Origin: a virus
DNA: 34,887 nt
IMG/VR virus record: IMGVR_UViG_3300033153_002866
Coordinates: 1 to 34,887 of that record
Reading direction: 5' to 3' (one strand)
How positions within the stretch are numbered: the stretch's first letter is position 1; every line of letters starts with the position of its first letter. The position numbers were made by a program, and so were the translations under genes. The notes under the pieces were generated by a model. That model saw only the letters and a program-made list of their open reading frames with translations. It made no database searches and had not been told where the DNA came from. This document shows positions 1,096-34,887 of this stretch, piece after piece.

Positions 1096-1640
1096 TAGAT
1101 TTGATAAACTGCTCTTAGAAGTTAATTTAGCTTCTGTGTTCTTTGAGTTTTTTATGAAGTGGTGCGGTGCTGAAAGTAGAAGCACTCTAGAGTCAAGGTA
1201 CGTCCGGCGTCGCGGTTGACTAAGTAGTATGACGAACTACAAAGAAACGTAGCAGGTTAACAACTGCCACCACTTCTCCGAGAGCTTTTATAAGTGGTGT
1301 AGAGAGTTAAAGGTTTTAAAATAGTGCGAATAGGTGGGCAAGTATGGCTTAGGCTGCAACCCCACGTAAACCTGACTATAAGGTAGTATGTGCCTAAGCA
1401 GAACCCTTCACTAAAAAGTCGCATTCATATATGTATGGATACTACACCACCTATAAGAGTTAAAATGCTCACTTGAGGGATAAGGTTTCCTCCTTCGGCT
1501 GACTACCTACAGCCGCCTTATCTCTCTAGTGAGCATTTGCTCAAGGTGTGTGACCTTATCACACTAACAATTAGTTTTCGTGAGGGTGATTGATGGTATC
1601 TTCCATCCTCTTCATTAAAGCTAGAAAGATACCAAAGGAT
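1096..1640 (+). ncRNA. Large structured RNA (unassigned class) or very long leader
   Basis: About 550 nt with no credible ORF but dense pairing. (a) A 9-bp helix 1156-1164/1268-1276 closes a junction holding four hairpins (1167-1171/1181-1185; 1191-1196/1216-1221; 1224-1228/1236-1240; 1252-1255/1264-1267). (b) A helix of about 19 bp, 1284-1302/1442-1460, has one mismatch. (c) Inside it are crossing helices: 1311-1316/1368-1373, 1323-1329/1419-1425, 1334-1338/1361-1365 and 1347-1354/1392-1399. (d) A three-tier hairpin has an 11-bp base 1463-1473/1528-1538, a 10-bp stem 1476-1485/1516-1525 and a 6-bp cap 1496-1501/1510-1515. Size, multi-way junctions and pseudoknots recall the ornate large phage RNAs (GOLLD, ROOL), but I see no diagnostic motif of either. 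No terminator precedes the gene at 1646, so it could also be that operon's leader. Confidence 0.55.
1592..1633 (+). promoter_or_regulatory. Mutually exclusive hairpins before the 1646 gene
   Basis: GATGG/CCATC (1592-1596/1603-1607) and the 8-bp GGTATCTT/AAGATACC (1595-1602/1626-1633) share bases and cannot form together. The larger stem ends a few bases before the AAAGGAT ribosome site of the gene at 1646, so the choice could affect its translation. Confidence 0.4.
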
Positions 1641-4792: not shown

Positions 4793-5364
4793 ATATTAGT
4801 AAAGCAGATCAACTCTCCACAAAGCGATACAGAAAACGAAAATGCAAAACATGTAAAGAGTATTTCCGTCCAGAGAATGAAGGTCAATTAATTTGCATGA
4901 ACGCAGAATGTGCTATTCCTTTTGCCAAAGAGGTAATAGCCAAAGAGAACAGGAAGGCTGCCAAAAAATCAAGACAAAATACAATCTTTAAGCTAAAGAG
5001 AAGAGCAGAAATAGCGTGCAATAGGTACATAGTCAAAAGAGACCAAGGTTATCCATGTATATCTTGTGGCTATATTTGGGTATCTCCTAACGTAGGACGC
5101 GGACAACAAGCAGGGCACTGGAAGTCAGTAGGTGAAAGACAAGACCTTAGATACAATGAGGATAATATACATTTACAGTGCGATCGTTGCAACCTTCATA
5201 AAGGCGGTGGCATTCATCCAGGGTACAGACCTAATCTAGTCAAGAGAGTAGGGCTTGAAAAGGTTGAGCAATTAGAGAGCAATAATGTACCACGAAAGTA
5301 CAGTGAAGATGATCTCAGAGAGATCACGAAACACTATAAGCAGAAAAAGGAAATGTTGATATAA
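4789..5364 (+). CDS. ninG: NinG/Rap-like recombination endonuclease
   Basis: 191 aa, basic. An N-terminal zinc site (C19, C22, C36, C41) is followed by a Lys-rich helix. A second site has CISCG (C90, C93), QAGHW with H110, then NIHLQCDRCN (H128, C131, C134). This order is typical of lambda NinG (Rap), which cuts D-loops and Holliday-type branched DNA and promotes focused recombination. Last gene of the rightward operon, facing the tailspike gene across about 33 nt. No strong terminator is seen in that gap. Confidence 0.85.
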   Translation: MNISKADQLSTKRYRKRKCKTCKEYFRPENEGQLICMNAECAIPFAKEVIAKENRKAAKKSRQNTIFKLKRRAEIACNRYIVKRDQGYPCISCGYIWVSPNVGRGQQAGHWKSVGERQDLRYNEDNIHLQCDRCNLHKGGGIHPGYRPNLVKRVGLEKVEQLESNNVPRKYSEDDLREITKHYKQKKEMLI

Positions 5365-5397
5365 ATTAATTTCTTATTAACATTAACAATTTTTATG

Positions 5398-7524
5398 TTA
5401 TGTTTGTGTTCCTACTATTGTTCCATCTGTATCTGATGTTGGCGAAGAGTCTTTTATTCGTAATCTTTCACTAGCATCTACCCAAAAGTGATAAGTTCCT
5501 AGTCTTAGGTGTTGTCCGTTCCATACTCCATCTCCTATTATTGTATTGCCTTCTCTTTGGTTCAATAAGGAGTTCCCACTACTATTTAATTGATGTTGTA
5601 TATGTGCAGTTCCAGCCTCATATATAAATAATTTTGACGTGCCGCTTGTATCATTATTTCTAAAAAATCTTACTACACAATCGCCTGCCCCATCAAGTGA
5701 ATTAACACCAATATCAAGGAATGAGTTTGACCCATCTGTTGAAAAGGCTTCGAATTCACTAAGTGCACCCTGTACTAGTTTATCCACATGTAAATTAGGA
5801 GCACTATTATATTTCGCTGGTGAAAACTCAACAAGCCAGTTAGTAATTTGTGATAGAGAAAAACTATTAAAATAATATGGATATTCTGTAGTCCAAAACC
5901 CATCGGAACCCACACCAGTAGCGTATGAATATACTTTGCCTATAAATGTTATTGCTGATGCGGTTGACCCTATTCTAATATCTGCGTGTGCCCTTGTTGA
6001 CTGATCTTCACTTCCTACAGATAAATATCCATTTCTATTTGATGATACATTTATAAACATAGGATTGTTTCCAAGAATTAGTATACCATCTGTATAGCTG
6101 TCTTGCGCTTCAACATTATTAAATATATTATAAGAACCTTGTTCTCTCAAATTCCCGTATGTTTTATCGACTCTACCATTCCATATTACTTTCCCGTTAC
6201 TGTACTTATTAGTAGAACCGCTGGCATATAAACCAGCTCTATCATTCTTTTCTATATAGAAATTACTATACATCCCGTCTGATGAATATACTGCAAAGCC
6301 GTCTCTCCCACAATGAGACACACTAAAATCATTATACATTATTTTATAATTTGAAGGCTCATGGAATATTCCGTCTACTGCTGCATTTCCAGCATCAAAG
6401 TCATAACAATACATGTGTTTGTATGACTCTGGCGGCACATCTATTTTATCAGTAAATGGAGCGAAAGAGTTACCATCTGATGAGGAAGTAGAGGCAACAT
6501 AGATACATCCTCCTGATAAATTCCCGCCCCTGTGCCCATCAAAGGTTATAGAGTTCCATCCACATAAAGCAGAAGCAGCTGGTACTTCTAATAAATTATC
6601 ATTTGTACCAGCTTTGAGTTTTAAAATTGTAGCGCCTCTACCATCTCCGACTAGTCTAACTCTCTCTTTAAGAGTAATTTTAGAGGAAATGAATATTCCA
6701 GTAGGGAAAAATACTGTCCCGCCTTTTTTATAAGATGCTAAACTATTTACGTAGTCTATTGCGTTTTGTGTTGGAATTGTATCGTCTGTTGTTCCGTCAC
6801 CTTTGGCTCCTAAACATTTAACATTTAATGGACCACTAAATTCTTTTTCCCAGCCATATATTGTTACACCATTATTTATTGCGGCTTGCGAAACATCATA
6901 ATTATATACCCCACCACCACCATCATTTGATGTGTAATATCCTGATGCAACTACACGGCTTGTAACATTTGGATCAACTGTTAGCATCTGTGCAATACTC
7001 GTTACGTGCACTACATCTTCTATGGAAAATAAGTTATCAAGATATTCGAATCCTGTACCATCTTCTTTTAGCCTTAAATAGCCACCACTTACAGAACTAG
7101 GCAGTTCGTTATTTACGGAAATATCTGTATTCGGCAACAAAAGGACTCTGCCATGTAGTGTTGCAACATCAATAGATAAATAGGTTTGATAGTCTTGATC
7201 TTCGTCCAAAGTATCTGCGATAAAATCCCCCCCGGTTACATAATTTGTAGTTCTTGTCTTTGGTAAATCCCTTAATAAGATAATAGTATCACCAACTGAT
7301 GCAGGAGATACAAGTACGATAATACCCCCATTGTCTCCATCTATTGTGACGGTATAATCTGTTTCGTATGTCAATATATCTGTTGCATCTTCTGGGGTGT
7401 CTCCTGAAGGTGTTAAATATACTTTGAGGTCTGCCTCTTCAAATATTTTAAAATTGAAATCAAAGTCCGTTTGTGCCGCACCCGCTGTGAATATTTGTTT
7501 TCCTAAGTTCGTATTAAATGCCAT
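5398..7524 (-). CDS. Tailspike: T7-gp17-type N-terminus with pectate-lyase-like beta-helix
   Basis: 708 aa. Residues 1-125 match the N-terminal tail-attachment domain of T7-type fibres (DYTVTIDGDNGGIIVL, then LLRDLPKTRTTNY and DEDQDYQTY). From about 233 it has the Pectate_lyase_3 opening VKCLGAKGDGTTDDT and a right-handed beta-helix with many Asn/Gly turns to about 590, then a Ser/Asn-rich C-terminal part (HLRLGTYHFWVDASERLRI). It likely binds or degrades surface polysaccharide; catalytic residues cannot be assigned by eye. AAGGAG precedes the ATG. It is the promoter-distal gene of the late operon. Confidence 0.85.
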   Translation of the reverse strand: MAFNTNLGKQIFTAGAAQTDFDFNFKIFEEADLKVYLTPSGDTPEDATDILTYETDYTVTIDGDNGGIIVLVSPASVGDTIILLRDLPKTRTTNYVTGGDFIADTLDEDQDYQTYLSIDVATLHGRVLLLPNTDISVNNELPSSVSGGYLRLKEDGTGFEYLDNLFSIEDVVHVTSIAQMLTVDPNVTSRVVASGYYTSNDGGGGVYNYDVSQAAINNGVTIYGWEKEFSGPLNVKCLGAKGDGTTDDTIPTQNAIDYVNSLASYKKGGTVFFPTGIFISSKITLKERVRLVGDGRGATILKLKAGTNDNLLEVPAASALCGWNSITFDGHRGGNLSGGCIYVASTSSSDGNSFAPFTDKIDVPPESYKHMYCYDFDAGNAAVDGIFHEPSNYKIMYNDFSVSHCGRDGFAVYSSDGMYSNFYIEKNDRAGLYASGSTNKYSNGKVIWNGRVDKTYGNLREQGSYNIFNNVEAQDSYTDGILILGNNPMFINVSSNRNGYLSVGSEDQSTRAHADIRIGSTASAITFIGKVYSYATGVGSDGFWTTEYPYYFNSFSLSQITNWLVEFSPAKYNSAPNLHVDKLVQGALSEFEAFSTDGSNSFLDIGVNSLDGAGDCVVRFFRNNDTSGTSKLFIYEAGTAHIQHQLNSSGNSLLNQREGNTIIGDGVWNGQHLRLGTYHFWVDASERLRIKDSSPTSDTDGTIVGTQT

Positions 7525-13773: not shown

Positions 13774-16062
13774 TTAGTAACTTACTTCTAAATCTAAAGC
13801 TAAAATTGTTAACGGTTCAGGGTTATTTTGTGTAATTTCTACTTGTGCTTTTATATTATACCCTAATAGGTATGTTGACTTAATGCCCGTTATAGGTGTA
13901 AGTGGCTCATCTGTAGGGTCCCCAAACTTCCTATTGGTAATTAGTTGACCATTCAAGTAAACACCTCTAGACTCGTACATGTTAACCACACATTTTGTGA
14001 TACGTCTTAACTGATTGACTATATTACCCTCGCTCTGCGTCTCTAGTGCCACAGGAAGCGACTTTATCAACACATCATAGTTAAGCCCTGCATAGAGGAT
14101 ATCTGCGTCTCTGTCTGCGTATGCGTAATATGTTCCGCTTTCATTAACTGCTTGTGTGGTTGTTTGAGTAACACCATCAGCCACTACTCTTATTTCACTA
14201 TTCAAAAGTAAAATATCGACCTCTATTTTGTTTGATGTGGTAGTTTCAAAAGCATGGTCCAATAAAAGACTTCTGTCTATCACTTCAAGATACTCTATGC
14301 CGTCTCGTTCAACTATAAACGTAACCACGTCACCAGAAACTATAACTCTTTTAAATTCCCCTTGAGTGGTCCATTGCGTCCACCCTGCTATATCTTCTTT
14401 TCGCATAGTATTAAACACGGCTACGGTACCGTCACCATTGACCAAATATAAGAGATTTGACACAGAGATACTTGACCCTCTGACTATATCCAAGTCTTGG
14501 ACATCATTGATAATATGCTCTGCCAGAATACTTATAGGAGGAGATGAATATCCTGCATCATCATAATCATAGATAAACCCTCTTACTGTTTTTCTAAACC
14601 TATCCATAAAGTATGTAGCACCGTCAAGAGTAACAGGTTTTATGCGTGAAGATCCGTATCCTGTTGATCGTGTCCATGCACTTGACATAGGGGTTAATAT
14701 TTCTTCTGTATTAACGAATTCACCTCCTGCTGTCATAACTTGTAGGTTTCTACTCGATACTATATTTTGAATTGCGTTGAACTGATCTGTATCAAGTATG
14801 TCAAAGATAGCATCATCCGCCAAAACATCACTTTCCCCTGTATCGAAATTAAAGAAATCATTAATAACTGAACCCCAAACACTCGTGGGTTTAGATTTTG
14901 AACCACCAAACCATAACCGCCCTTGATGAAACGTACACGTTCTTGGATATCCTTTATCCTCTGTGCTATACTCTCCTAAATTAGTCCACTTTGATCTGTC
15001 CGAAAAGTCTGTTGTTGACAAGTCTACAAGAGTTAAAACAGTATTACATTTATATACATGGTTATCAAGCCCATTGACATCGTTCCCATCGTCATTAAGC
15101 ACTTGATCCCCATAATACAATATAGGTATGATGCTTGTGCCTGGACCTTCGTTTGTGTAATTAATATTATCATTTGTTATCCCCCATACGTTAGGTCTGA
15201 TGCCCTCATCACTCCAGAACCCATTATCCATCCAATTATCTGCATCTAGGTAGTCTTCTGTTGATAAATCTATAGATACCCTTTGAGTGATCGCTCTATA
15301 GACATGGGTATTATGTCCGTTTACATCATCCTCATCTAAGTTGTTGACAACTTCTCCTATTTCTACTGTTTGGGTGCTTGGTGTTCCATAGTTTGTGTAG
15401 TCGCCTATTTCTTTCGTAAAGTCAATTAAGGATAAGTCTGTGTCTAATACATCTCTTATTGCTTTATATAGATGCTCATTCGCCCCAATAAAAATATTTT
15501 TAGTGTTATTATAGACGATCTCATCTTTGTCTATATCAAAAATAAGACTATCCCCATAATTGAAATAGGTTGGTATTTTTGTAGTATCGTAATCAAACTT
15601 TGGGATATTGGTTAGTTCAATGTCTGATACCGCCCAAGCCGTGTGTGAACCTTGTCTTTGAATCTGTATAGGGTTAAAATCTTCATGAGTGATTATGATA
15701 GTGTCTGCATTTTGTATGATATCCATATCATTTAATTGTGTGGTAGTCAAAGGTGTTGACCATGGTATAGTGGCTTGAATCGTTCCGCTTTCAGGTAGAT
15801 AGACTTTGAAATTCGCGGTATTTAGAACGATTACATAGTTTTGAGTGATGCTGAATTCAAAACTAAACAATCGTGAACCTACAGTTACATCATCTAGTAG
15901 TTTTAGCCCGGGGCGCCTTTCCATTCCACCATGCGGTAATATGGTTACGTTTTCAGCTTCCTCAACCGCGCTATAATACTTTTTAAGATCAATACGCCCA
16001 AGAAGCGTTGGTGCGATAACACCTGCTATTAAACTGTTTTGGATTACTCTCGTGCGTGCCAT
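13774..16062 (-). CDS. Tail tubular protein B (tail nozzle)
   Basis: 762 aa. It opens with LIAGVIAPTLLGRIDLKKYY, then ENVTILPHGGMERRPGL; the RRPG block marks T7 gp12-type nozzle proteins. The rest is beta-rich, with a repeated motif around DVNGLDNHVYKCNT and DVNGHNTHVYRAIT (carbohydrate-binding-module-like insertions). It sits after tail tube A with a one-base overlap. It forms the distal tail tube to which spikes attach. Confidence 0.85.
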   Translation of the reverse strand: MARTRVIQNSLIAGVIAPTLLGRIDLKKYYSAVEEAENVTILPHGGMERRPGLKLLDDVTVGSRLFSFEFSITQNYVIVLNTANFKVYLPESGTIQATIPWSTPLTTTQLNDMDIIQNADTIIITHEDFNPIQIQRQGSHTAWAVSDIELTNIPKFDYDTTKIPTYFNYGDSLIFDIDKDEIVYNNTKNIFIGANEHLYKAIRDVLDTDLSLIDFTKEIGDYTNYGTPSTQTVEIGEVVNNLDEDDVNGHNTHVYRAITQRVSIDLSTEDYLDADNWMDNGFWSDEGIRPNVWGITNDNINYTNEGPGTSIIPILYYGDQVLNDDGNDVNGLDNHVYKCNTVLTLVDLSTTDFSDRSKWTNLGEYSTEDKGYPRTCTFHQGRLWFGGSKSKPTSVWGSVINDFFNFDTGESDVLADDAIFDILDTDQFNAIQNIVSSRNLQVMTAGGEFVNTEEILTPMSSAWTRSTGYGSSRIKPVTLDGATYFMDRFRKTVRGFIYDYDDAGYSSPPISILAEHIINDVQDLDIVRGSSISVSNLLYLVNGDGTVAVFNTMRKEDIAGWTQWTTQGEFKRVIVSGDVVTFIVERDGIEYLEVIDRSLLLDHAFETTTSNKIEVDILLLNSEIRVVADGVTQTTTQAVNESGTYYAYADRDADILYAGLNYDVLIKSLPVALETQSEGNIVNQLRRITKCVVNMYESRGVYLNGQLITNRKFGDPTDEPLTPITGIKSTYLLGYNIKAQVEITQNNPEPLTILALDLEVSY

Positions 16063-22780: not shown

Positions 22781-22797
22781 TGTGCCAATTATAACAT
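22781..22797 (-). promoter_or_regulatory. Extended -10 promoter for capsid (late promoter 1)
   Basis: Minus-strand ATGTTATAATTGGCACA contains TGnTATAAT with no -35 box at the normal distance. It matches the sequence before the terminase small subunit at 15 of 17 positions. A perfect 19-nt palindrome lies immediately upstream (22805-22823). Confidence 0.6.
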
Positions 22798-22804
22798 AAA
22801 TTTG

Positions 22805-22823
22805 ATTGATTAACTTAATCAAT
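22805..22823. promoter_or_regulatory. 19-nt perfect palindrome, putative operator
   Basis: ATTGATTAA-C-TTAATCAAT, 9-bp arms about a single base, centred roughly 33 nt upstream of the expected capsid transcript start and also upstream of the opposite-strand gene at 22877. It could bind an activator or repressor for both. Confidence 0.55.
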
Positions 22824-22876
22824 TTGATTTATTTCCTATTTTATTATTTAAATAGTATGATTAAAGAAAAAGGGAA

Positions 22877-23095
22877 ATGATGCGAGAACTAATACAAAAG
22901 ATTAAAACCTACACGGAAGCAGGGATTATCTTAAATCACATGGAGTTGTTTGATGAGGCTTTTTCTGTACAACTTGAGCAACACTACGAAGGAGTAGAGT
23001 TAAGGAATGAATTGATTTCCATAGAAGCCAACACTTCAGAGAATTTAAGGGCTGAAATTAGATTATATAGGAAGAGGCTGGGCATGAAGCCCTAG
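22877..23095 (+). CDS. Opposite-strand small gene inside the late operon
   Basis: 72 aa, or 71 from the second ATG at 22880, which has better spacing from AAAGGG. Helical and charged, no family recognised. It points against every neighbour and ends with a 4-nt tail overlap with the scaffold gene. It fills a gap otherwise too long for this compact genome, with an AT-rich promoter-like upstream, which fits a late-acquired moron-type gene. It could still be chance. Confidence 0.5.
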   Translation: MMRELIQKIKTYTEAGIILNHMELFDEAFSVQLEQHYEGVELRNELISIEANTSENLRAEIRLYRKRLGMKP

Positions 23096-34729: not shown

Positions 34730-34887
34730 GCTTTGTCCTTTGTTTACTTTTGTTAGATTAAGTGTTTGGCTTATAAAGAATTGCCCAGCCTAAAAAGACT
34801 AGGTTTACTTCCGTTGAGTATCGCGTAGGAAAGTTTATTCTTATACTGCATAGCTATTATAAATAAGAAAAGAGAAGTAACTTAGAT
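34730..34887 (-). promoter_or_regulatory. Upstream region of the leftward early operon
   Basis: 158 nt without a well-supported gene. Minus-strand TATAAT at 34856-34861 may be a -10 box; no good -35 is visible before the window ends. A 26-codon ORF (34771-34851, ATG without a ribosome site) is the only open frame, and CCTA/TAGG arms form a weak hairpin. Confidence 0.35.

Follow-up and report, generated by a model that had tools for sequence, protein, structure and literature searches.

An early region of a T7-like podophage very probably encodes a real, conserved and structured RNA, immediately upstream of the early operon. The DNA analysed, hereafter called the window, is the whole of a 34,887-b virus record in IMG/VR; the RNA is encoded at positions 1096-1645 of its + strand. 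An earlier note on this DNA had proposed a large pseudoknotted RNA in a phage early region, and this proposal is borne out by compensatory changes in the core of a homologue in a second phage (L116). The structured RNA is previously undescribed, within Rfam 15 and the collections searched, and two phages are known to carry it. Judged from sequence, it probably represents a new, unnamed class of phage RNA with a putative function, and with two members known its family status and mechanism are provisional. Large structured phage RNAs are few and mostly without known function. Here, a defined conserved core, a natural domain A deletion variant and a fixed place before the early operon make the role testable by reporter.

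Genomic setting and parts of the element

The window has the organization of a T7-like podophage. Its - strand carries the late genes for tail, portal, capsid and terminase; rightward from 1646 runs a short early operon, which encodes an HNH endonuclease, an ERF recombinase and NinG. No tRNA genes are present in the window. The host is probably a Campylobacterota bacterium, because the single-strand binding protein shares 63-66% identity with those of Nitratiruptor phages and a relative of the terminase (68%) lies on a contig binned with a Campylobacteraceae MAG. The little-studied phages of Campylobacterota would then carry RNA elements absent from Rfam. The HNH endonuclease (2003-2587) has relatives in many Vibrio and Rheinheimera phages, the best being that of Pseudoalteromonas phage HM1 (49%). 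The parts of the element and its surroundings are, from 5' to 3':

1037-1065, - strand: leftward promoter (TTGACA-17-TATAAT, 12/12 matches), its second hexamer preceded by TG; divergent from the RNA
1052-1083, unstranded: inverted repeat GGTTAAAC...GTTTAACC between the divergent promoters, read from the sequence; possible operator
1084-1089, + strand: -10 box TATAAT, read from the sequence and lacking a good -35 hexamer; the RNA is predicted to start at about 1096
1117-1135, + strand: hairpin P0 near the 5' end, conserved in L116 (26/28 identical, 93%)
1156-1276, + strand: domain A, a four-hairpin junction with closing stem 1156-1164/1268-1276 (9 bp)
1284-1460, + strand: domain B, the conserved pseudoknotted core, closed by P1
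1285-1302/1442-1459, + strand: P1, 17/18 pairs
1311-1316/1368-1373, + strand: P2 (AGGTTT/AAACCT), crossing P3 and P5, invariant in both phages
1323-1329/1419-1425, + strand: P3; in L116 one G-T pair has become G-C, and there is a bulge
1334-1338/1361-1365, + strand: P4, crossing P5; a crossing stem absent from the earlier note
1347-1354/1392-1399, + strand: P5, CTTGGAC/GTCCAAG in L116
1463-1538, + strand: hairpin C in three tiers, outer stem 1463-1473/1528-1538 (11 bp) and two inner tiers; CCTCCTT at 1489-1495
1594-1634, + strand: hairpin E (1594-1602/1626-1634), just 5' of the ribosome-binding site
1634-1639, + strand: AAAGGA, Shine-Dalgarno sequence of the first early gene, read from the sequence
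1646-1930, + strand: first early ORF, 94 aa, of no family and without counterpart in the L116 operon

On the other side of the divergent promoters, an 85-aa protein encoded on the - strand (751-1008) shows weak TacA1-type antitoxin similarity (Pfam E 2e-4) and sits behind the perfect consensus promoter. It may be an early repressor with the inverted repeat at 1052-1083 as its target.

Non-coding status and folding

In agreement with the gene-free stretch of about 550 nt originally described, the ORF listing contains no + strand frame of at least 50 aa in 1096-1645. The + strand of this region folds at -177 kcal/mol against -143.2 +/- 6.5 kcal/mol for shuffled sequences (z -5.16), a value matched by 0/100 shuffles, and the - strand also folds well (z -4.52). 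Long perfect Watson-Crick helices are likewise enriched: four reach at least 9 bp, a number attained by none of 200 shuffles, and eight reach at least 8 bp, as in a single shuffle of 200. The dense packing of helices that had been claimed is thus real, and all the helices named at that time, i.e. the domain A closing stem, P1, three crossing stems and the three-tier hairpin, were found.

A homologue in a second phage

Rfam holds no match to the element at the gathering score and only chance matches at a relaxed score, in line with the earlier note, which recognised no signature of GOLLD or ROOL. Homologues were to be collected by blastn; that route returned no relative of the element from phage and plasmid collections, and an exact 27-base pattern had no match. 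The first-gene protein had no relatives either. One true homologue came from a search with six degenerate seeds taken from an open antisense frame over the core: it lies in phage L116 (contig IMGVR_UViG_3300033141_001404, 34,219 b), whose DNA is 73% identical to window 1282-1459 (E 1e-25). A single-sequence model built from the window's core alone (R1) scores 105.5 bits on L116 (E 3e-23); unrelated sequences reached at most 15.9 bits when collected loci were first searched. The homologous stretch of L116 folds with a z of -7.16. An antisense-frame protein (1257-1424) was rejected as the source of the match, which is due to DNA conservation; indels break the frame.

Relatives of the late genes have different early regions with no such RNA, and their short matches fall in coding genes. 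The early region of one related phage (L095) holds a pentapeptide-repeat protein gene at 5060-5701. Two pattern scans gave chance matches only, besides the L116 contig. Campylobacterota genomes were scanned with R1 as a 397-genome sample plus families of 104 and 228, and one weak match was judged to be chance, the inner half of P1 being missing.

The element occupies the same place in both phages, with divergent promoters upstream and the early operon directly downstream. The L116 promoter, TTGACA-17-TACAAT, ends just 5' of P0, where the window has its -10 box, and the element extends in both phages as far as the first early gene's ribosome-binding site; neither the window nor L116 has a strong terminator between RNA and first gene. 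The first early genes themselves are unrelated; an ERF-like gene follows in both operons, recognized by Pfam in the window and by reading of the sequence in L116.

Conservation of the pseudoknotted core

Core helices have changed on both strands between the two phages. Double changes affect two pairs of P5 (1351/1395 and 1353/1393; A-T to G-C and G-C to A-T) and one of P4 (1336/1363, G-C to T-A), and the A-C mismatch of P1 at 1293/1451 is repaired to A-T in L116. The end pair of P5 and two P4 pairs are lost. The total of three double changes and two repairs comes from two sequences, a depth too small for R-scape-type significance, and most core pairs are invariant and therefore uninformative on structure. 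Furthermore, the alignment was made with R1 and is hence biased toward P1, P3 and P5. An independent ranking of perfect helices in the L116 core placed P1 (15 bp) first and P5 (7 bp) second, with P2 among the 6-bp helices, and the window helices 1330-1337/1447-1454 and 1383-1389/1439-1445 had no 6-bp counterpart there. The loops AGAGAGTTAA, AGTATGTG, AGCAGAACCCTT and AAAAG are conserved between window and L116. Because two pairs of P5 and one of P4 have changed on both strands, the comparison supports, within the limit of two sequences, a pseudoknotted RNA fold that would be under selection.

Modularity of the RNA

Of the RNA of about 550 nt first proposed, the core is conserved, and the whole is not a single conserved unit: L116 lacks domain A and has other hairpins at the 3' end. 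There, some 10 bases separate P0 from P1, and on this comparison domain A (1156-1276) is to be regarded as an optional insertion, an added module. The interchangeable GTGGTG/CACCAC pairs of the two domains, which had been suggested to allow a conformational switch, exist in the window as the swap pairing 1268-1275/1292-1299 (CACCACTT/AAGTGGTG). This pairing requires domain A and has no counterpart in L116, which excludes a conserved switch. Apart from the shared AAGTGGTG/CACCACTT closing stem, paralogy of domains A and B was rejected, the local score not exceeding that of shuffles and the global score being marginal.

The 3' hairpins of the two phages do not align, but both sets carry TTCCTCCTT. 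On the + strand CCTCCTT, a motif picked after inspection, has a single occurrence in the window, which lies inside the RNA, and three in the 33 kb of L116 examined, two of them inside the RNA; 3/4 occurrences in both phages together thus fall within it. Its sharing between hairpins of both RNAs is a lead. The AAAGGA of the first gene can pair modestly with the CCTCCTT loop (-7.5 kcal/mol), and the loop pairs more strongly with several other phage genes than with this Shine-Dalgarno sequence.

Possible functions

The best overall explanation, to which we give a little under even weight, is a 5' leader on the rightward early mRNA of this T7-like podophage, with a conserved core ahead of variable hairpins displaying CCTCCTT. 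It is suggested by the layout from promoter to ribosome-binding site in both phages. Somewhat more tentatively, we propose a cis action of this leader on the early operon, which is one of recombination. Its conserved core would serve as the binding site of a ligand, with a protein or RNA polymerase as the likeliest candidates. The variable 3' hairpins with CCTCCTT would provide the output: they would either uncover or occlude Shine-Dalgarno sequences (AAAGGA in the case of the first gene) or protect the message. Riboswitch-type leaders, with an aptamer and an expression platform, offer a likeness in their pseudoknotted core and variable hairpins near a Shine-Dalgarno site. In contrast to them, the element belongs to no known aptamer family, has no known ligand and is followed by different genes in the two phages; a riboswitch matched to a particular gene fits poorly because the two operons start with unrelated genes.

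Alternatively, the RNA could act in trans in early infection, being processed or terminated before the first gene and behaving like ROOL or GOLLD or, through its CCTCCTT loops, as an antisense RNA on host or phage Shine-Dalgarno sequences. We regard this as possible and rather doubtful. The size and complexity of the element, the lack of conservation of the downstream genes and the anti-Shine-Dalgarno motif in hairpins of both RNAs argue for it, and two palindromes read from the sequence, the loop GTTAAC (1257-1262) and CATATATG (1426-1433), could drive dimers; however, the GTTAAC loop belongs to domain A, missing from L116, the RNA runs in both phages straight into the ribosome-binding site with no convincing 3' terminator, and no tRNA genes lie nearby, unlike the case of ROOL and GOLLD. 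The latter are ornate phage RNAs of hundreds of nt, with several pseudoknots, conserved and variable parts and unknown function, and the element shares with them a phage-borne location, a length of hundreds of nt, pseudoknots and modularity (PMC12286853). It differs in lying directly upstream of an early operon, not near tRNA genes, and in a conserved part of only about 180 nt on the 5' side, with the 3' hairpins replaced in L116, whereas GOLLD has a universally conserved 3' region. ROOL is often found near tRNA islands and forms a homo-oligomeric cage. As families, both are excluded by Rfam and context and remain analogies. The C-rich loops of S. aureus RNAIII and RsaA pair with Shine-Dalgarno sites, and the unpaired C-rich motif of the element is similarly complementary to Shine-Dalgarno sequences; its sequence and fold are unrelated to theirs, and a trans action would here be putative, by analogy (PMC3961350, PMC2837412). 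It is unlikely that the element represents a new class of ornate phage RNA that is produced immediately upon infection and uses its pseudoknotted core as a scaffold for anti-Shine-Dalgarno hairpins, which would reprogramme translation in trans.

A role in antitermination seems less likely still. The put RNA of HK022 modifies RNA polymerase so that terminators are ignored, and put, like the nut sites of lambda, heads the transcript from an early phage promoter, whatever gene lies downstream. The element shares this promoter-proximal position, in both phages, and this independence of the downstream genes, and the leftward operon likewise starts with a conserved non-coding stretch. Unlike put and nut, it is far larger and pseudoknotted; moreover, the window's early operon contains no + strand terminator-like site after the leader, so there is little to read through, and the rightward and leftward leaders share no detectable sequence. 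That the region is structured DNA only, serving as a replication origin or regulator sites without an RNA function, would accord with the good folding of the - strand and the adjoining divergent promoters. We consider it very improbable, since crossing stems with compensatory changes and conserved loops suit an RNA fold and, in both phages, a promoter immediately precedes the element. Finally, the order of strands (P2 5', P3 5', P4 5', P5 5', P4 3', P2 3', P5 3', P3 3') is that of the nested double pseudoknot of HDV-like ribozymes. Against this likeness, no Rfam ribozyme or intron model matches, no conserved catalytic motif or catalytic cytosine context is apparent by eye, the counterpart of P1.1 has 7-8 bp rather than the 1-2 of HDV-like ribozymes, and the core lacks a P4-like hairpin and is enclosed in the long P1, so that we give a ribozyme hardly any credence. 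A group I intron was also rejected: no Rfam model matches and no split gene surrounds the element.

A second conserved non-coding stretch

Another non-coding stretch, window 34736-34887 plus 1-328, is contiguous in the compared sequence G408 (14130-14612); the window ends therefore join, and the record is circularly permuted. This is the most conserved DNA between the two phages (94-98%). It has no Rfam match, begins after TTGGCA-17-TATAAT on the - strand and includes a hairpin in which both arms have changed in a compensatory way (AGTATGCAAACT to AGTGTGCAAACT). It may be a second RNA or a replication or packaging element, and is possibly the leader of the leftward operon. Further stretches conserved with G408 (80-81%) lie at 22788-22958, between the capsid gene and that at 23092, and are partly intergenic.
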